Source of the DNA: Fistulifera solaris
Lineage: Eukaryota > Bacillariophyta > Bacillariophyceae > Naviculales > Stauroneidaceae
Reading direction: 5' to 3'
NCBI GenBank assembly: GCA_030295235.1
Contig: AP026145.1
Span: forward strand, 2,501 to 66,500
Length of the DNA: 64,000 nucleotides
Shown here: positions 1,174 to 41,900 of the stretch, piece after piece
Layout of the letters: the number at the start of each line of letters is the position of its first letter
How positions within the stretch are numbered: position 1 is the first letter of the stretch
Program-made: the position numbers and the translations under genes
Notes under the pieces: generated by a model
What the model saw: only the letters and a program-made list of their open reading frames with translations
Told to the model about the DNA's origin: nothing
The model's database searches: none

Positions 1174-1481
1174 TACAACCCGCCTCCACTGTTTATGAGA
1201 GCTTATTTCAACGGAAAATGTTTTCACTAAGTGGAAAACAAGTATGCGGTAGGAGCTTGTCCGTCGCTTCGCGATGTCGCACACCTACTGATAGCAAGTA
1301 CGGTAACGTTTCACACGCTCACTTCTCCGCCAAGCATTTCACAACCTGTGAAAATGGACGAAAGACGACACAACGCGAAACGCGAGACGAGAGAAGAGAC
1401 GACACTCTCGTCTCAGCTTTGTTTACTCCGTATCTCTCATAGACACTGCCATTCAATAACTCGTACTCCGTATCATCGAGA

Positions 1482-3458
1482 ATGCCCGATTTTCCTGAGA
1501 ACGTGACTTGCTCTGTCGCGCTGGAAAAAGAGCAGGAATTTACGTATTTGCACAGCGTCGCTTGGGGAGCTTCACGAGATGATCCAGGCTACGATACGGA
1601 TCAGACGCTAGCACCACGTCCCCGCAAATCACTCGATGTATGCGATTGTTCTCCGGGGAGTACTTGCCTTGACAATTCATGCATTCTGTTTGCCTGTTTC
1701 GAGGAATGCACGCGATGCAATAATCCGGCGTGTCAAAACAAACGACTGCAACAAAAACAATTCATACCCACAGAAATCTTTGATGCCGGGCCAAAAGGAA
1801 AAGGACTCAAAGTCACAGAAGCTGTTACTCGTGGTACTTTGATAACCGAATACACGGGGTTGCAGTACGAGCAAAGCATCTTAGTCGATTGTTTCGTCGC
1901 TATCAATTCGATCGTCGATTATACATTCTTGCGCTCGACAACGATACATACTTGGATGCGAGACATCAAGGAGGCGCGGCTCGATTTATCAACCATTCCT
2001 GTGAGCCGAACTGTCAAATGGAACGATGGAAGGTCAAGGGCGTTTTAAGAGCCGCTGTAGTAGCTCTCAAGGATATTCCGGCGGGCACCGAATTGACCTT
2101 TGATTATCAGTGGGAGCGACAGAGGGACGTGCATCCACCGTATGCCACTGTCAAACTCCGTCGTGTCGAGGAACACTTGAGGTTCAAAAGTCACAAACCG
2201 ACCAGCTCATGGACGAAATTTCGCAAGGGCATTGGTTGGACTGGAAGGTTAAACCAGATCAAACATTAATCAATCGAATCATTCGAGTGTATTCAAAGAG
2301 CACGACGATTTCTTCATCGGAGAAATCACGGATTACGATGGATCTGAGAAGCATCGCGTTTTATATAGACATACCATGAACGAGGTGTGGGAAGACCTGG
2401 CAGCCGAGACGTGGCAGGTCTTGGACGATCCATCGAGTTTAGATCCATCACATGTTATGATTGCCAAGAAGTTGCGAGCGACAGAGAACGGTAGTAGCAA
2501 CAGTTTATCCGATGAAACCACAGGTTTGTTTCCGGCTGGAGAGTTTGTAATTCAGCACTGCTTGCTGGTGCAGACGAACATCAAAGAGTTACTCTGGAGC
2601 AAGCACTACATCGAACGCTGCCACAGAAACTGTAGAGGCGTACAAGTTACGGCGCATCGAGTTACAAACGCTGACCATCAGATCGACGATGCGCATAGGG
2701 AGGATTATCAAAGGCTGTTGCAACAGTCGACGGATGGCGCCGTGTGGAAATTGTTTCTCCAAGGCGGCGACATTCCTCGAGCCCATGAATTTTTGACGAA
2801 AGCCGTGGCGCAACTGGAATTTCAGGTCAACCAGCAGCAACAGCAACAACAAAATCTACAGCAACAATCTACCATAAATGACGCACACTCGTTGATTGTT
2901 CCGAGAGTCGTCGCCGACGCTTTGAATCAACGATTGCCGTTGTTGCAAGACATTTTTCGCTCAATATCGTTCCAGTGGGCGCCGTCAGAGAGCAAGTCCA
3001 AGCAATTCAGTCGTCTATGGATGGATGGCAGTGGCGAAATGGAACATGCTAAGGCGCAGCTGTGGAGTATAGTACAAGAATTAGTAAAGGCGTATGATAT
3101 CTCGGATGCTTTGAGTCAGCGATCACCGCTAGGTTGGCTAGCAGGGAGTTTGACACAAGTGCAGCTCGACCTTCTGTTCCCAGACAATCGGAAGAATGGA
3201 TTTACGAAGCCTACATCACTTGTTAAATCTTTCGAGCGCATGTATCAATGTACGATGTGGGTCCAAGATGAAACAGACCGTGGTCGAATTGACTCCAAGA
3301 ACCAACTCGTCATTTCGGACGCGAATAGGTGCCACGTGTTTATTTACTGTGAGCCGGCCCATGTCGATCGTTTATGGAAGCTATTGTACAGTAGAGTAGA
3401 AGAGCTGGAACGTGGTATTGAATTTTGGCCCATTCACCTATTCTTTTTCAGCTGTTGA
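1482..3458 (+). CDS. AWS-SET-postSET histone lysine methyltransferase (Set2/NSD/ASH1 class), probably the N-terminal part of a longer protein
   Basis: Predicted nuclear SAM-dependent histone methyltransferase; H3K36 is the usual target of this AWS-SET class, which is inference here. In order: an AWS zinc-binding cysteine cluster (CDCSPGSTCLDNSC, then EECTRCNNPACQN), SET-N (KGKGLKVTEAVTRGTLITEY), the SET core ARFINHSCEPNCQMERW, GTELTFDYQWERQR, and post-SET cysteines (CHCQTPSCRGTLE). One-base shifts sit at AAA 1874-1876, GGG 2124-2126 and AAA 2295-2297; after the last, the frame continues as EHDDFFIGEITDYDG. A glutamine-rich linker lies at about 2830-2870. The frame closes at 3458 but overlaps the next cyclin-like frame from 3425. 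A 37-nt GT-AG stretch at about 3414-3450 could be a short intron, or there may be another shift. No promoter-sized gap separates it from the cyclin part. Confidence 0.85.
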
Positions 3459-4777
3459 ATGGCAGTTTCTTCGATTGGGTATACCGCAATTTTCAAACTC
3501 GCCTTTCCCATGATCCAATCTTGCGAGACCACATTCGTGTTGAAGGCTCGAACAATGCGCTAACAAAGGAAGTGGTCCAGTTGCAATGGGCATGCTTCGA
3601 AGATTGCTGTAGAAGGGAAAACGACTGGATTTTTGGAAGAGACTGGACAACAGTTTCCATATCGAAATCCCCTCCGAACAAGGGATTGCCCGGCGCTTTG
3701 GATGTATCATCGGCGAGCGCTAGCGCTCTGGAAGTGGCGGAGATTGTTAATCGTTTAAATCTACAACCGCAGGTCGCTCTCCATGCCGTTCTGGTTCTTT
3801 ATCGCTTTGTCGCGACGGCAAAAGAACCAACAAAAGCCCGTGACGTGCAGCTAGCAAGCGTTTTCTTGGCAATCAAGTCACAAAAGTTAAAGAAGTGTCT
3901 TAAGCTTGAGGCTGTAATTGAAGCAGGATATGCGACGTTTTACGGGTCTGGCGTGGTCGAAGCACGTGAGAAACAAGGTATCGCAGAGAAAGTACTACAA
4001 GCTGAGCAACTCATTATAGATACGCTTGCATATGATGTATTTTGGAAAGGAACATGTACGATAGGACGCCTCTGTGCTTCGGTACTCGCGCCAGAACAAG
4101 TTGAATCTATTTGGAAGTTGGTTTGCTCTGGTCAGGTTCTCAGCGCTGGTCCTGAAGTGTGGCTCAAGTACGGAATTGAATACGTATTTGCTGCATGTGG
4201 GGTTTTACTTCAAATGAACCTAAGCCTCCTGTTACCGGCTTTGTATCTTGTTCCTCTCAAGGTTTCTCAGGCTGCCGTATTACTCGTGCAGTCTTCGAAA
4301 TGGGGCAAACTGGAATCGAAACTGGTTCCATCGCATCCCATAGCTGAGCTTTCAGTCGAGGAATTGGAGCGAAGAACCATAATTGATAAGGTCGTGTTGG
4401 GTACTCCACCTAGACGATTGTTGTCAACTGCGCGAGAACGCTGTCTTTTGCAAGGTATACCTATGAGCGACGTAGCGGAGAGAATTTTGCCGGTTTTGAA
4501 GGAGTTGACACAGCAATCATCGGTTACGGTATATTTGTCGGGAGATGCAACAACGAAGAACGCTCAAATTACTTTAGAAGGATCCTGGAAAGCTGTTGCG
4601 ATCGCTGAGCATCTTATGCGAGATACTTTACAATCGGAGTCGCTTGAACTGAAACCCGACGTTTTCGACCCTATTCGCTTTCGCCTTCCTATGAAAAAAA
4701 GCCCCGCTTTTACTGACATCAGATGGTTTCCGTGCTGCTCAGGCATCCTGCTCAAAATCAACTATACCAGCTTTTAG
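3425..4777 (+). CDS. cyclin-box region, probably the middle of a SET-cyclin-pseudokinase protein
   Basis: About 450 residues. The central part has the helical pattern of transcriptional cyclins (T/K/L type): EVAEIVNRLNLQPQVALHAV, LVLYRF, then DVQLASVFLAIKSQKLKK, and EQLIIDTLAYDVFWKG ending the first fold. The second half is alpha-helical and could be a second cyclin fold. The C-terminal part (AQITLEGSWKAVAIAEHLMR) vaguely resembles a KH domain; this is weak. There is no ATG at the 5' edge (it opens on TTG), which supports continuity with the SET region. At A7 4694-4700 the frame shifts into APLLLTSDGFRAAQASCSK and onward toward the kinase region, so the stop at 4777 is probably not real. Cyclin partners are normally CDKs, which fits the kinase-like module just downstream. 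Confidence 0.7.
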   Translation: MAHSPILFQLLNGSFFDWVYRNFQTRLSHDPILRDHIRVEGSNNALTKEVVQLQWACFEDCCRRENDWIFGRDWTTVSISKSPPNKGLPGALDVSSASASALEVAEIVNRLNLQPQVALHAVLVLYRFVATAKEPTKARDVQLASVFLAIKSQKLKKCLKLEAVIEAGYATFYGSGVVEAREKQGIAEKVLQAEQLIIDTLAYDVFWKGTCTIGRLCASVLAPEQVESIWKLVCSGQVLSAGPEVWLKYGIEYVFAACGVLLQMNLSLLLPALYLVPLKVSQAAVLLVQSSKWGKLESKLVPSHPIAELSVEELERRTIIDKVVLGTPPRRLLSTARERCLLQGIPMSDVAERILPVLKELTQQSSVTVYLSGDATTKNAQITLEGSWKAVAIAEHLMRDTLQSESLELKPDVFDPIRFRLPMKKSPAFTDIRWFPCCSGILLKINYTSF

Positions 4778-4795
4778 CAACGACTCTCGATTGAA

Positions 4796-6151
4796 ATGGT
4801 TACAAACTGTAAGGGCTTCAGTCACACTGGGTTGATCGAAGATGCGCACAGTGTTGCCTTTGCCGCTTTGGGATCTGAAAATCTTTCTGTGGCTTTGGAA
4901 GATCTTGCTTCTATCGTTGCCGACCCAAAGGATTATCCATCTCTTTGCCGATCATCGAAAACCTCCGAGAACAGCACCGGGATTAGCGTATCAATGCGGC
5001 AGTGGCCGCCCGAAAAAATACAGCGAAAAGAAACATCGCTGGGATTTTCTCCGATGGCCTTGCAGGAACTTCAGCTTTTGATGCAACTTCACTCATTGTC
5101 GATGACCGGTCACCCAAATATATTACTGCCCATCGCCATTTGTCAGCCGACACCCGAAAATGCAGTGGCACCCCCTCACCATAGTGACGACTCAAACCTG
5201 TTTTCACTATTTCGGTCAACGGAAGTGAACAACGAAGTGGCAGACCGCCAACGCCGATTGAAAGCCCACTTACATGTCGTCGGTCCGCCTATTATGTTCA
5301 ACCTGCCCATCAAAGCTGATTTTCCTCCTAGCTTGCTACAGAGCTGGTGTCTTGATATCGTTGCCGCTGTGAAGCATTGCCACGATCATGATGTTATCAT
5401 TCGGGTCTGGCAACCAGAATTGTTCGTTGTTCTCGAAGACGGAACGTTGGCGTTGAGTTCATTCTATCGAGCTACCATGCAAAGAGAAAAGTCGGATCCT
5501 TATGAAGCGGCAAAAAAAGCGGCATGGAAAAGCAAAAACAACAAAACTAAAGAAGACAACAGAGAGCAAATTTCGTCATTCACCGCCCCTGAAGTTTTGC
5601 TTGGGTGTCCTCAGCATAGCAAACAAACAGATGTCTGGTCGTGTGCCTGTTTGCTCGCACAACTATTACTTGGGAAACCGCTTTTTGTAGGGAAAGATCC
5701 AGAATCACTGTTACAATTCCAGTACAAAATTGTTGGTGCGCCGTCATCGAGTAACTATCGTAAGGCTGTGAAGTATCCCAACTATGTGAAGCCTTGCAAG
5801 CAGTATAGCCGTGGCGTCAAACACGCATTAGAGAGAATGTTCAAAAGGCCTCATCCTTTGACTGAAGTCTTAGATCAAATGCTTTGTTTAGATCCTGCAG
5901 AACGCATCCCGCTTGAGAAAGTGTTGGATCATCCGTACTTTCAGACGAGCAATATCCACCGTCTCGACTATGCGAACGATTGGTTACAATTTTCGAAACT
6001 TTACAAGGATCGCGAGGTAAACGAGGAACGCAATAAGAAGCGGAAAGCTATGATCGAGGCTGCCGTTAATACTTTTACCAATGGCGGGCGAGAGCTGGAC
6101 GAATTGTACGACATTGATGAACCCCTATTCAGTAAGAAGGCAAAAGACTGA
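4796..6151 (+). CDS. CDK-like pseudokinase region, probable C-terminal module of the same protein
   Basis: The fold is CDK-like: an alpha-C helix (SPMALQELQLLMQLHSL), HPNILLPI, a long N-lobe insertion, FTAPEVLLG, DVWSCACLLAQLLLGKPLFV, GKDPESLLQFQYKIVGAP and MLCLDPAERIPLEKVLDHPYF. The catalytic residues are gone. The loop that should read HRDLKPQN is IRVWQPEL, so the catalytic Asp, Lys and Asn are absent. The DFG site reads SSFYRA. The VAIK lysine appears as VAARK in the frame around 5002, placing Arg at the usual Lys position. This is therefore a pseudokinase by sequence. One-base shifts around 4829-4831, about 4992 and 5041-5043 scramble the glycine loop. A basic KKRKAMIE stretch near the C-terminus could be nuclear targeting. 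The ATG at 4796 is probably internal, because coding-like sequence continues upstream to the cyclin region. Confidence 0.75.
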   Translation: MVTNCKGFSHTGLIEDAHSVAFAALGSENLSVALEDLASIVADPKDYPSLCRSSKTSENSTGISVSMRQWPPEKIQRKETSLGFSPMALQELQLLMQLHSLSMTGHPNILLPIAICQPTPENAVAPPHHSDDSNLFSLFRSTEVNNEVADRQRRLKAHLHVVGPPIMFNLPIKADFPPSLLQSWCLDIVAAVKHCHDHDVIIRVWQPELFVVLEDGTLALSSFYRATMQREKSDPYEAAKKAAWKSKNNKTKEDNREQISSFTAPEVLLGCPQHSKQTDVWSCACLLAQLLLGKPLFVGKDPESLLQFQYKIVGAPSSSNYRKAVKYPNYVKPCKQYSRGVKHALERMFKRPHPLTEVLDQMLCLDPAERIPLEKVLDHPYFQTSNIHRLDYANDWLQFSKLYKDREVNEERNKKRKAMIEAAVNTFTNGGRELDELYDIDEPLFSKKAKD

Positions 6152-6357
6152 AACCTGGCTTCGTTCATAAATTTATCCATTGAAAGACGCGAAGCATTAT
6201 CTCTGTCAATGAACACTAAGGGGGTTGAACGTATAACGTCGTCAATGTTACAGCTTTTAAAATTGCTAGGAAAGAATTGTTTTGCCGATGGGAGATGGGA
6301 GTAGTGAATTCGTGACCCCATGACTCGTGACTGATATCTCGTCGGAAACGTGAAGGG

Positions 6358-7104: not shown

Positions 7105-7964
7105 AGCTAGCTAGTCTCTAGAATTTAGTTTGCAAAGTGAACGGCAACCGGCAACTGGCCGACGCAGAAGTGGAAAGTTTTTAGCTTCTCTGACCGAAGA
7201 CTACTGCAGAGAGTAGTGCTTTATTGCAAGTACCGTGTACCGTTTCCAGTGTAATGATTTACGCCATGTTAAAGCAAAACCGTAGGGCCGATGAATAATT
7301 ATTGATTGGTGATTGGCCATTGGCCAATGGCTGCGGTTGCGGGTTGCGGATGGAGTTCAAGGAGTTCAAGGCAATTGGAATGTCACATGAGTCAGCCAGT
7401 AAGTCAGTCAGTCAAGAGCAGCTTAGCGTTCAGCGTACAGTACTTGTAAAGCGTTCGGCGTTCGGCGTTCCCGGATCTGGGATCTGGGATCGTAAATTCG
7501 TAAAACGAGGAAGGATAAGAAGTTCCGCAAACCAGGAATCTATTGTCTTCTGTTCCACGATGTACTTAACAGTTCATGGTTTATGCCTCATCTCAAGATG
7601 TCGTCAAATAACAACAGTTGACTAGAACAGTAGCCCTAAAGCATTTGTATTCCGTCCAGAGTACATCTTGTAAATTGCGGAATTATAGTAGTGAGTACAT
7701 TTTGTTTTATACTGAATAAGGGTTTTGATGGAACGCGGACAAAATAGCCCTTGTTCTTGGGCCTTTCCCGGACGAAACTTCCACACTTCACCGCCTTCTC
7801 TACTAAAAATACCATGTGAAAGGCTTCTAAAGTCGGATGTGGGGGCAACTCTGCGTCATTTTGAACAAAAGCTATCAAATATCGAATGAATCGTCTTGGC
7901 CGTAATTCATCATCATAAAATAATCATTCGACCAGTTTGTGAAAGCTGTTTCAAAGAGACAAAT

Positions 7965-10505
7965 ATGTTAGGCTGGATCAATGATTGCGCTGAAAAGCTG
8001 GTCATTCACAAGTTTGGACTTGAAGCTTGGCATACTGTCAAGTCAAAGGCGAAATGCTACGTCGAGGATGGAGGATTCTTGAAACTCGAAAGCTATTCAG
8101 ATCAAAGCACTATCGACCTTGTTGTTGCAGCAAGTGAAGTCTCCGGACTCACCGTCGATCAAGTCCTTGAAGCGTTGGGTGAATACTGGGCACCGTACGT
8201 TGCTGGCGAAGGCTACGAAAATCTCCTTTGGTGTCAAGGATCGACATTTAAAGACTGGTTGACGAACATTAACGCCATACATTCGCATTTACAGACGACG
8301 TTTCCCAACAAAATGACAATGCCGGAGTTTTGGGTAGAGATGGACGATCACGACGAATCAATTATCTTGTACTACTTGTCGTCAAGAGGAAATCTTCTCG
8401 CTCCCATCGCCAAAGGAATTGTTAACTCTGTGGCCAAGACTGAATTCGAACTCGATATCGTCTTTGAAAAGCTGACAACTCAAGGAGTTGAAGGTGCAAA
8501 GGTCACCAGGTACGTAACGAGTTGAAGGTAACGAAGAACAGCATCAACTTTAGCTCGATCTTACAACGCTTCATCTCCGTCTCACACAATCAGTTGGAGA
8601 ATCACCACCGAGGACCCACTCGACATGTACAAGCTCACGCAAAAGAAAAGTTGCTACGGAGATATTCATCCGGTCTCCGAAATCAAGTGTCCTTTTACCG
8701 GAGTCGTCTACACAACTCCTTCCGAACTCAATGTTGAAGGCAATGAGGAGAGTCATCTCAAGACAGCCAACTCGTGCCCTGTCACTGGAGTAACATTTTC
8801 AAAAGAAGCCCGCTGCCCGATGCAGAGCCGCGAAATGAATACATCTGCGGACTTGATGGCTGAAAAAGATTCCATGACTCAAATTGAAGAGGAAGGCGAC
8901 GAGCCCAAGTTTTCTCGAAGAACCTCATTCAGTGACCAATCATTAGGCACGTCCGTCACGAAAAGCTATTCTTCAACATCTTCAGACCCGAATGGTGGAT
9001 TGTCGGCAAGGGTTACAAAGAAATTGTTTCCCTATCACATTACGTTGGGTCCTGATTTGTGCATTCTTCAAGTCGGTAAAGCGCTTCCCAAATTGTTGAA
9101 CGTGTACGAAGACGACCTTCTTGGAATGCCTGCATCGCAAATATTTGACATTCAAAAGCCCGCGGCTGCCGTCTGGAGTTCTAGCTGGCTTCGGAAGCTG
9201 GAAGATCAGTCTATGACAGTTAAGCCGACTTTGCCATCCGCTCAAAAGCTCGTCTTCAAAGGCAGTGCAGTTCGTCTCAACGATCGAAAAGCAGCAGACT
9301 GGATCGTTATCCTGTGCCCAGATGCCAATAACTTGGACGAGCTACGCGACATGGAGCTGACTCTGAGCGATCTTCCCGTACATGGATCACACCGTGATGC
9401 TGTCTTCCTCCGAGAGCACCTCAGTAGTCAAATGAACGACGCGTTGAAAATGGAAAAGCTCAGCAAGTCACTGCAAAAGGAAAAGAAACTACTCGAGTCG
9501 CTTCTTCCCGAGCATGCTGCCGAAGGATTGCGAATGGGTCGAAGTGTCGAGCCGCGTCTTCACAACAATGTCACCGTCTTCTTTTCAGACATCGTGGGCT
9601 TTACCAGCATTTGCGACCAGATCTTTCCGTGGGAGGTCATCAACATGCTCAATCAGCTTTACTGCATCATGGACTGCTTGGCGCTGAAATTCAATCTGTT
9701 TAAAGTGGAAACGATCGGAGACGCCTACGTCTGCTGCAGTGGCCTTCCCGATAGTGACGAAAACCATGCTCGCAACGTCGCCAATTTCGCTCTTGCTGTC
9801 AGTCATTGTTGCGGTCTCGTTAAATCTCCTGTGGACGGCAAGCCGATTCAGTTGCGTATCGGGATTCATTCCGGATCTTGTGCCAGTGGTGTAGTTGGTG
9901 TGACGAACCCACGTTATTGTGTTTTCGGTGACACTATCAACACTACTGCGCGTCACGAAAGCACTGGCGAGGCAGGAAAGGTTCATTGTTCCGATGTCAC
10001 TCGAAAAGAATTAGAAAGGAAAGCCCCCGAGTTGTTTGCGTTTGAAGATCGCGGTTTGATTGAAATGAAGGGCAAAGGTCAACAGAACACCCACTGGTTA
10101 TACGCTTCCAAAATAAACGAGTTCGCCAACCAAACTGGCTTGAAAGCTATTGTGGATCTCGTGAAGAAGGACTTAACCAAGATGGAATCGTTTAAAGCCG
10201 AAGATACGGTTCGCAGCGACACGCAGGACTTTCTTCATGGAAGTGAATCTCCCCTCTACAGTCCCAAGAAGCATGTTGTTCGACGAGTGTCCGCTACTCT
10301 CACCGAAACGTCAACGAACAGTGAGTACTCCGATGGGAACGACGATTTGCATTCTCTTCGGGTCGCACCAGACTTGCTTGAAAAGAGTCCCTCGACGAAA
10401 CACATTCACAGCGTTTCTTTAGTGCAGGACCTTTCGGAGAGGGAGGTCATTTCTCTACTGTCTCCATCTCTCGAGCTGACGCGAAAGAACTTTTATTTCA
10501 TGTGA
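7965..10505 (+). CDS. soluble guanylate cyclase with H-NOX, HNOBA and catalytic domains in one chain
   Basis: Makes cGMP from GTP; the haem domain suggests regulation by NO (or O2). H-NOX starts MLGWINDCAEKLV at 7965. Its proximal haem ligand is the His in NAIHSHL and the haem-propionate YxSxR motif is YLSSR. An 84-nt intron (8510-8593, GTACGT to CAG) joins VTS to WRITTEDPLD. An HNOBA/PAS-like domain (FPYHITLGPDLCILQVG) and a signalling helix (SKSLQKEKKLLESLLP) lead into the class III catalytic domain: metal Asp in FFSDIVGFTS, Glu in KVETIGDAYVC and Cys in PRYCVFGDTINTTAR. Glu plus Cys is the guanine-specifying pair, and the Asn and Arg of NTTAR are present, so a homodimer could be active. 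The tail after about residue 670 is low complexity. No frameshift is present. Earlier in-frame sequence lacks ATG, so 7965 is the start. Confidence 0.93.
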
Positions 10506-38900: not shown

Positions 38901-41900
38901 TCCGGTTGTTGATATTTCTTAGAAATTTCCTATGTTCTGCTTTGTCAAGAAGTTCAGCTTCTCTCAACTTCTTTGCAAGTTGTATTAAACAAAGAGGACT
39001 GTTTTTATCATACTCTTCAACGGTATCAGTTGTCAGTTCAAAAGCCGATTCAAGCTTCAAAAGCATGTTTGATTCTATGCGATTATGCTGAGTTGCTGCT
39101 GCGAGGGAAGGAAGCCCATAGCTGCCACACCATAGTGGTTTCGTCAACGAAACCGTCACTGAATCAAACCCATCACAAGTGGCGATCGCATTAATTGCAA
39201 GAGCTGGCACTTCCATCAAAATCGGATCAAGTACAAATGGAGTAATAACAGATCGCGGCTCAAAAAGATCAGGGTGATTACACACCTTGCAAGTGAAGCT
39301 CAGCGATAAGAAAAGAAGATGCACAAAACACAGGTAGACAAGAGTGTGACGATACTTACCTTTCGAAGTTGCATCAAAACATTCATCATACCCATGTAAT
39401 TTCCACCCTTTTTCAGCGCCTGTCTGGTTGACGATCGTGCCATAAACTCCTCATAGATAAACATCTTTGGAAAATGTAAGGAAGACCTTTCGACCAAAGA
39501 GTTTGATAACACCATAGCAACTTACCTGTCGCCGTGAAAGCTGACATTTTATTATATGCTCGAATTTACCGGGCATTTGGGTTTCTACATCCTTCTTCAG
39601 ACGTCTCAAAACAAAGGGACGGATAATTCCGTGCAAGCGATTCATCATGTCGTCATTTTGATTAGATTTTCCTTCGATCAGATTGTTCGTAGGGTTCGCG
39701 AACCAGAATGAAAATTCTTTTCGCGAACGGAAAATGTGCGGCATGAGGAAATGCAGGAGAGACCACAGCTCCATTAAATTATTTTGAAGAGGCGTTCCAG
39801 TCAAGAGAAGCCGTCTCTGCGTGTTAAACGTTATAAGCGTTTGCCATCGCTGCGACTGAAAATTTTTGATGTTTTGTGCTTCATCCAGGACAAGGTAATA
39901 CCACCGTTTACGTTTGAAAGCAAATGCATCTTGCACCGCAAGCTGATACGAAGTTATGACAACATGGTACCAATTGCTTTTTGTCCAACCTGTTCTAAGC
40001 TCCTTTCTTCTCTTTACCGACCCGTAGTAACAAAGAACCTTAAAACCGGGCGCAAATCGCTTAAGCTCCGTTTCCCAGTTTAAGATTACCGAGGTGGGAA
40101 CAACAATTAAGTGTGGACCCCAGATTCCTTTGTAAGAAGCGAGATACGCCAATAGAGATATCGTTTGTAGTGTTTTCCCGAGACCCATCTCTGCGCAACC
40201 AAAGAAGTAAGAAGTATTATGTGGAAGCAAATACAAATGACTCGTGACACGTACCATCGGCAAGGATTCCGTTCAACATCCTTGCTTGAAGAGATACCAG
40301 CCAACCAAGGCCCGCATGTTGATATTCGCGAAGCTTGACTGACGGCGACAAGAGAAAGGGTCGGCTTACGCTAGCAATAGTAGTAGCCGCTTCTGACCTG
40401 ATACAATTCACCTCCTCCGTGGCTGATTTGACTTCCCCCAAGCGGCTTTTCTTATTCGATTCATGTTGAATTGATTGGGGTCGTTTTTCTCCCGCCCGCT
40501 GTTTTGTTTCATCTCCGGAAAGTCCATATAGTTCTCTAAGTTCTGCCAGTGACATGTTGTTCTCGTCATTGAGCCTGGATATTTCTTCTTCGACCGTCAT
40601 CTCTCGTCCTAAGAGCTCCTCTGCAGCAATGGTCGTTTCATCGTCTACCTCCATCGCATCCGGTTCATATTCACCATCCGATTCCGATTTTTCACTCAGC
40701 TCGTCGTCATCTTGCTGAGATGCTTCACCGTCACTGGAGCTATCATTTACGCCAACATACATCGCCCGCAATTCCTCAATTGACATTTGGCTTTCTCGCT
40801 TCAGAATGTCAAGTTCTTCTTCGTACGTCATTTCCCGACCTAGCTTTTCCTCCGCCTCCATCGTCGCTTCATCATCTACGTCGTGCTCCTCTGGTTCATA
40901 ATCATCGTCTTGATTATCACCTTCCCGAACAGGGCCCACCAACGCATGAAGTGTCAATTTGAGGTTCATATCGACGTCACTACTGCTCTCGTCGTCCTCA
41001 TCGCTTTCGTCACCAGCATCGTCAACTTCATCTTGTTCACTTTCAATCCCAGCATTGTTGTTACTTTGATACATTTGCCTTAGTTGCTCAATAGGAATTT
41101 CACTTTCGTTACGAAGAAGGGCAAGTTCCTCCTCGTAAGTGATGTCCCGGCCCATCTTTTCTTCGGCTATTAAAGTGGTTTCATCATCTAAAGCCTCCCC
41201 ATCTGGAACGAAGTCGCCATCGTCATCCACGTTGTCTCCTTCCATTTCTTCCGGGTCAAACGACGATTCTGCTTCGTCAGTCTCTTGTTGCGCAAATGCT
41301 TCTGCATACCGTCGTCGCAACTCTTCTACTGGCAGCTCACTTTCACTTTGCAACATTGCGAGTTCTTGTTCCGCCGTCATCTCCTGTGGTAGTCGCTCTT
41401 CTTCCATCATGGTCGTTTCGTCATCGACGGGCTCTTCGGTCATTTCATAATCGTCTTGGTCATCTTGATCGTCGTCATTGTAATCCTCCACATCACTGGC
41501 ATCCTGATCATCGTCAGCATCTTCTCCTGGATCGAGCTTCACGGGTGGAGACCCCGTTTCAGAAGATGACCTGCTAGGAATGCTTTGAATGTCGGGTTCA
41601 GCCGCAAAACGTACTTTCCTCGAGGGTCGATCGCTTTCCTCATCGCTACTGCTGCTAACGCTATTGGTGTTCAATTCTAGATGACCAGAATCCCTCGCTT
41701 CTTGTTGAAATCGTTGCAATACTTGCTCAATCGGCATTTCCATTTCTTGTCGTAATTTGTGAATTTCCTCAGGATCAGGAACAAAGGCCCCAGTTCCCAA
41801 TTGTCGTTCTTGTGCTTCTTCTGTTTCCGCTTGCAGCAATGTCGTTTCATCATCCGACGAATCGGTCTCCAGAGTAAACGTCGCATCCGATCCCGAGTCA

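Follow-up and report, generated by a model that had tools for sequence, protein, structure and literature searches.

Methyltransferase, cyclin-like and pseudo-CDK modules in one probable gene of the diatom Fistulifera solaris

Does one gene of the diatom Fistulifera solaris encode a histone methyltransferase together with its own cyclin and a dead cyclin-dependent kinase (CDK), and, if so, what would the added pair do? The locus in question lies on the plus strand at 1482..6151 of a 64,000-nucleotide stretch of contig AP026145.1 (C21:2501-66500; the whole stretch is hereafter the window), in a genome assembly of 51.7 Mb and 61 contigs. We found that comparison with a diverged second copy on contig C22, together with the pattern of codon substitutions, argues for one gene of ~1,550 codons running from the ATG at 1482 to a TGA that ends at 6151, and we regard a real single gene as quite probable. 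Its product would be a fused protein whose cyclin/pseudo-CDK pair docks the methyltransferase to transcribed chromatin, a reading to which we assign a probability of about 45%.

The second copy opens frames interrupted in the window

Passages of two papers describe F. solaris as allodiploid (PMC5935921, PMC13276009), and both the two-copy structure and the GC content found here (43-48%) agree with this. Contig C22 is the diverged second copy of the window region: 21 of the 26 BLAST blocks are collinear (C22 2319-63209) with identities of 77.5-93.0%, and the remaining five, short or repeated, are placed elsewhere on C22. The gene itself is 90% identical in DNA there and has its ATG at 3872.

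Pfam matches fall in the order SET, Cyclin_N, Pkinase on the plus strand of the window, and the claim of the initial annotation that these modules share one strand was borne out. In C22 they are spread over three open reading frames (ORFs): one of 732 amino acids with SET, one of 604 amino acids (L009:5827-7641) with Cyclin_N that reaches into the kinase N-lobe, and one of 348 amino acids with the rest of the kinase. The 732-residue ORF keeps the whole AWS-SET half open as a single frame up to a frame change that we call junction 1. In the window, the kinase is unbroken from N-lobe to C-lobe in one ORF of 457 amino acids.

Aligning window positions 1473-6169 with C22 produced nine gaps, three of them multiples of three and six of them single bases. 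The single-base gaps (window 1858, 2123, 2294, 4694 and 4803; C22 7579) sit in or beside short runs, and the other copy has an open frame at each site. The two in the linker (4412..4804; differences at 4694 and 4803) are thus bridged by C22, in which cyclin module and kinase N-lobe share one frame. The interruption of the frames by one-base shifts, claimed earlier, is therefore confirmed at these five window sites and one C22 site, to which a shift near 3440 in both copies is added. The assembly clearly has many such frame changes between the copies: among ORFs of at least 250 amino acids with a match of >70% identity in the other copy, 8/32 from the window and 8/31 from C22 change frame there, counts that include this gene (three ORFs and one split per set) and in which some other splits may be introns. 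Eleven ORF breaks common to both copies were listed, and at least one of these (40220-40272) resembles an ordinary GT-AG intron by eye.

Junction 1 (3432..3448), which contains a five-T run, is the frame change of this gene common to both copies. Upstream (3240-3431), the codon differences between the copies read in frame 0 as 9 synonymous and 4 replacement changes, and in the other frames as 4:9 and as 1:10 with 2 stops. Downstream (3449-3640), frame 2 gives 13 synonymous and 5 replacement changes, and the other frames give 2:15 with 1 stop and 1:12 with 5 stops. Hence, coding sequence appears to lie on either side of ~17 bases that end in the five-T run, and the simplest reading would be that one T is missing from both copies, whose sequence context is near-identical here. 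The single-gene reading, first put forward from overlapping or adjacent frames, gains support in this way from the breaks that C22 opens and from coding-type changes on both sides of junction 1.

All modules are under purifying selection

The ratio of non-synonymous to synonymous substitution rates (dN/dS) between window and C22 was 0.126 over 1,547 codons, with no stops in the frames used. It was 0.038 in AWS-SET-postSET, 0.106 in a possible Tudor-like segment (2240-2430), 0.136 in the linker to junction 1, 0.117 in the cyclin module, 0.259 in the stretch that follows it, 0.179 in the kinase N-lobe, 0.109 in the C-lobe and 0.065 in the charged C-terminal tail, which extends with the stop codon over 5942..6151 (ratio taken over 5946-6148). 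Between two of the shifts, a short 34-codon linker reached 0.755. Hence, purifying selection acts on every module, the pseudokinase included, which shows that the dead kinase is conserved as a protein.

The methyltransferase is probably of the H3K36 type

The SET domain (1797..2110, with the NHSC.PNC and FDY motifs and the one-base gap at 1858 that is open in C22) matches Pfam PF00856 at E 2.5e-17 in the window fragment and 2.3e-18 in C22; its window limits are those of the Pfam match to C22 residues 175-279, transferred through the pairwise alignment. A cysteine-rich AWS-like segment precedes it (1641..1752, by eye), and post-SET cysteines follow at 2111..2188, across the one-base gap at 2123 and inside the PDB alignment to ASH1L. 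The AWS and post-SET cysteines and the NHSC and FDY motifs were recognised by eye; the AWS Pfam model had no match in the scan of the C22 ORFs, and a genome search with PF17907 returned 0 matches, as it did in its 14 controls. The best PDB relatives of the SET part were ASH1L (2.2e-34), SETD2 (3.1e-32) and an NSD-type enzyme (1.3e-31), which supports assignment to the class that methylates histone H3 lysine 36 (H3K36; the ASH1/SETD2/NSD group) without choosing within it. The AWS-SET-postSET unit is probably an active methyltransferase.

The protein shares this catalytic unit with Set2/SETD2, PtSETD2 of Phaeodactylum included, and differs in that those proteins carry a C-terminal SRI domain and none was found here. 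No SRI domain was seen in the three C22 ORFs (Pfam, E up to 10), and a genome search for SRI, run without a working positive control, gave 0 matches. By its predicted domains, with SRI not found in the three C22 ORFs, the protein is not a standard Set2. A Tudor-like reading by eye of 2266..2426, which holds the one-base gap at 2294, was dropped after yielding no PDB match and no Pfam match at E up to 10.

Other SET genes occur in the genome. A second pair, L061/L062 (contigs C15/C16), shows 38-39% identity, with NSD-like PHD fingers on the L061 ORF, and is a second candidate for the H3K36-type class. L064 (C2:580500-586500), a further SET gene, has an extended N-terminal region and is perhaps of trithorax/Set1 type by eye.

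The kinase-like module has lost its catalytic residues

The kinase-like part consists of an N-lobe (4808..5317), delimited by alignment to a CDK12/9-like kinase of the same genome, and a region matched by Pfam PF00069 (5318..5941). Pkinase E values were 1.9e-18 in the window and 1.7e-18 in C22. Among the best 60 of 756 PDB matches, which begin at 4.4e-23, we found MAPKs and CDK-type kinases, with MAPK FUS3 and PHO85 in the lead. Pfam and PDB place this part in the CDK/MAPK group, which upholds the earlier reading of a CDK-like fold.

In the alignment to the CDK12/9-like kinase, the VAIK lysine, HRD aspartate, loop asparagine and DFG aspartate correspond to R, V, L and S, and C22 carries the same residues. 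The substitutions named in the initial annotation proved exact and are identical in C22: arginine for the VAIK lysine at 4997-4999, IRVWQPEL for the HRD loop at 5399-5422 and SSF for DFG at 5456-5464. The APE and DVWS motifs are retained. This alignment to the kinase, which is 26% identical over residues 91-429, spans the cyclin-binding helix to the domain end and is loose ahead of the helix. At the position of the PSTAIRE-type helix the protein has GFSPMALQEL, which by eye resembles the CDK9/12 type.

The genome also holds separate CDK12/9-like genes, with catalytic residues intact and a Pfam Pkinase match, and cyclin T/K-like genes, all named by eye and on weak Pfam evidence. Hence, the fused pair would add to that machinery. 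The CDK12/9-like kinase, named by eye, is present as L011/L012 (contigs C41 and C40) and ends in a long, degenerate tail with many Arg-Asp repeats.

The cyclin-like module is a borderline match

The cyclin-like module occupies 3725..4411, with the match to Cyclin_N (Pfam PF00134) at 3740-4039. E values were 2.4e-4 (window) and 2.7e-4 (C22) with the whole ORFs, and 7.9e-5 (window) and 5.9e-5 (C22) with trimmed modules. In bits, the trimmed modules scored 23.2 (C22) and 22.8 (window), and the untrimmed ORFs 21.1 and 21.2, around a curated cut-off of 23. A whole-genome Cyclin_N search listed 67 matches; the C22 copy, at 24.0 bits and E 8.4e-4, came at the bottom, and the window copy was not among them. 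A cyclin module is thus borderline, with its match at the Pfam cut-off.

We compared the module with 29 cyclins drawn from the 67 genome matches; of five further loci, L068 was the one scored against the module. L068 is cyclin T/K-like by eye and has a CycT2-like_C match of 25.7 bits, below the cut-off of 27. Both of its ORFs match the module weakly and in order. With the window query, the only one used for the other cyclins, L035 and L047 were reached by 20/1,000 and 39/1,000 shuffles, respectively, and the other 26 cyclins by at least 91/1,000. An affinity of the module to cyclins T/K, which rests mainly on the two in-order L068 matches, is not strong. The proposed origin of the whole module from a transcriptional cyclin/CDK pair is weakly supported: it stands insofar as it is compatible with the data, and falls short insofar as the best 60 of 756 PDB matches contain neither CDK9 nor CDK12.

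A docking role for the cyclin/pseudo-CDK pair

From these parts we propose a single protein of ~1,550 residues in which an AWS-SET-postSET methyltransferase of the H3K36-type class precedes a cyclin-like module and a CDK-like pseudokinase. Like the partners of a cyclin-CDK pair, the cyclin module would pack on the pseudo-CDK helix, here within one chain. Together they would be incapable of phosphorylation and may serve as a docking or allosteric surface, one that could recruit the methyltransferase to chromatin under transcription, for example via RNA polymerase II or the kinase of its C-terminal domain. In yeast and animals, the SRI domain does this recruitment job. Since no SRI domain was found in the three C22 ORFs, there is room for the cyclin/pseudo-CDK pair to act in its place. 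P-TEFb, CDK12-cyclin K and CTDK-1 are pairs of the cyclin-CDK type linked to transcription elongation; the module proposed here would be akin to them as a pair of that type, and differs in that its kinase is dead and that cyclin and kinase lie in one chain with the methyltransferase. A docking module that couples methylation to transcription would be plausible. Should such a tether to transcribing polymerase exist, H3K36-type methylation would here be coupled to transcription in a different way, and an entire cyclin-CDK pair would have found new use in nature as a scaffold without enzymatic activity.

Several results weigh against this proposal. For the cyclin, the Pfam match is weak and lies at the cut-off, no cyclin appeared among PDB matches searched with the 604-residue ORF and with a two-sequence cyclin alignment, and a profile of 28 genome cyclins (30 loci taken, 2 removed for a broken frame) failed to separate the module from shuffles (7.7 and 6.3 bits vs 6.4 for the best of 1,000 shuffles). 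The L068 scores were reached by 22 and 27 of 1,000 shuffles with the window module and by 84 and 45 of 1,000 with that of C22, and L035 alone equals the L068 match. For the kinase, CDK9 and CDK12 are missing from the best 60 of 756 PDB matches already mentioned. Single-sequence structure models of the cyclin module and the pseudokinase (window) had mean predicted local distance difference test (pLDDT) scores of 42 and 35, too low for use. At junction 1, the break stands in both assembled copies, one synonymous change each, at 3431 and at 3451, sets its exact limits, and the downstream C22 ORF has a methionine at residue 80, ahead of the cyclin box.

The strongest competitor is that the cyclin/pseudo-CDK module regulates the methyltransferase within the chain, through auto-inhibition or stability, unrelated to RNA polymerase II. 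We consider this unlikely on balance, yet it deserves serious weight. No result obtained here connects the module to the polymerase. Pseudokinases are generally thought to be scaffolds or regulatory partners, as part of PMC3019232 also has it. Against regulation within the chain stand two weak indications, namely the match of the module to both ORFs, in order, of the cyclin T/K-like gene and the likeness by eye of the kinase helix to the CDK9/12 motif.

A bolder form of the docking proposal would have an ancient stramenopile methyltransferase carry its own dead elongation cyclin-CDK pair in place of SRI as the polymerase tether, the fusion being older than the split of diatoms and oomycetes. 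We hold this to be doubtful, somewhat more so than regulation within the chain.

Alternatives at junction 1

The remaining alternatives concern the reading frame, and all are improbable. In the first, one gene would make two products, a short SET-only protein and a long fused one, by ribosomal -1 frameshifting at TTCTTTTTCA in junction 1. The shift there is identical in both copies, in near-identical sequence, unlike the other shifts of the gene. However, TTCTTTTTCA does not conform to a standard slippery heptamer, and single-base differences in run length are frequent in the assembly. We give programmed frameshifting a slim chance.

Slightly less probable still are two genes, a SET protein that stops at 3456-3458 and a separate downstream gene for the cyclin and pseudo-CDK. 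The upstream-frame stop and the frame change fall at the same place in both copies, and the methionine at residue 80 of the C22 ORF could serve such a gene. However, the upstream frame looks coding to ~3431 and the downstream frame from ~3449; the downstream ORF of the window (3422-4777) has its first methionine at residue 265, past the cyclin box; and the 79 residues that precede the C22 methionine are conserved as protein. Because coding-type changes flank junction 1 and leave only ~17 bases, both two genes and an intron are unlikely.

An intron would have to be short, and its chance is very small. The window offers a pyrimidine run and a CAG whose last base is 3451, and removal of 56 bases from GT to AG (3396-3451) would bring the frames back into register. 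However, C22 has AA in place of the AG at 3450-3451. A search with donors at 3260-3456 and acceptors at 3421-3719 gave 50 GT-AG pairs that are conserved in both copies and restore the frame; none has its acceptor before 3527, and each would remove sequence with coding-type changes. With the acceptor lost in C22 and coding-type changes on both sides, we set the intron aside as unlikely.

Decay of the window copy into a pseudogene, as the three frame breaks in its SET half might suggest, is just as improbable and was set aside on dN/dS, which is 0.022-0.133 in four segments up to 3446, with no stops in the frames used and with frame changes also in other genes of both copies. One gene that encodes one fused protein stays the preferred reading of the frames.

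Known relatives

The initial annotation knew of no described example of such a protein, and here it was not borne out: PMC3019232 (2010), in the part consulted, reports that three Phytophthora species have a methyltransferase fused to an inactive CDK-like kinase. PITG_14137 of P. infestans is described there as an inactive CDK-like kinase apparently fused to an N-terminal histone-lysine methyltransferase; P. ramorum and P. sojae have orthologues, and other species do not. Both proteins have an N-terminal methyltransferase and a C-terminal CDK-like kinase inactivated by substitutions in the catalytic region, as far as that description goes. They differ, compared by description only, in that a cyclin module is mentioned for the present protein and not for PITG_14137; the consulted part of PMC3019232 mentions no diatom example. 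The PITG_14137-type layout, one chain with an N-terminal methyltransferase and a C-terminal inactive CDK, is present here if the chain is read across junction 1.

The same source, again in part, describes oomycete CDKs that are probably inactive and carry C-terminal cyclin domains, and reports that CDKs with integral cyclin domains were not found in two diatoms (PMC3019232). Those oomycete proteins resemble the present one in combining a cyclin and a probably inactive CDK-like kinase in a single chain, and differ in that the cyclin follows the kinase, the catalytic aspartate is replaced by asparagine, and the excerpted text mentions no methyltransferase (PMC3019232). Part of PMC10421102 attributes extra conserved motifs IV-VII, which it does not name, to some diatom SETD2 homologues. 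Neither the word cyclin nor the word kinase occurs in the PMC10421102 text.

No SET, cyclin and kinase protein was named in the titles or abstract openings of the open-licence literature matches listed, and no second paper with the gene name PITG_14137 was found in the open-licence literature. The 604-residue ORF, scanned against viral and prokaryote contigs, drew 3 and 27 pattern matches, none of which encodes a relative. By its predicted layout, then, the present gene is a fuller variant of a methyltransferase-dead-kinase protein known in outline. Regardless of any tether, it extends the Phytophthora fusion to a diatom and adds a probable cyclin module, and selection shows that the dead kinase is maintained.

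Surroundings of the gene

The gene is near a chromosome end, as C22 starts with 333 bases of CCCTAA repeat. At that contig start (L009 1-1168), the telomere-type CCCTAA is followed by tandem repeats of 14/21, 18 and 23 bases, and the gene is <4 kb away; the first 3 kb of C21 showed no tandem repeat. A GDA1/CD39 nucleoside phosphatase gene lies at 30-890 of the window on the minus strand, and its C22 copy is scattered across several frames. On the other side, at 7890-10505, adjoining ORFs match HNOB (Pfam 7.7e-34) and then HNOBA (4.6e-22) with guanylate cyclase (3.4e-56), which looks like a guanylate cyclase of the nitric-oxide-sensor type.

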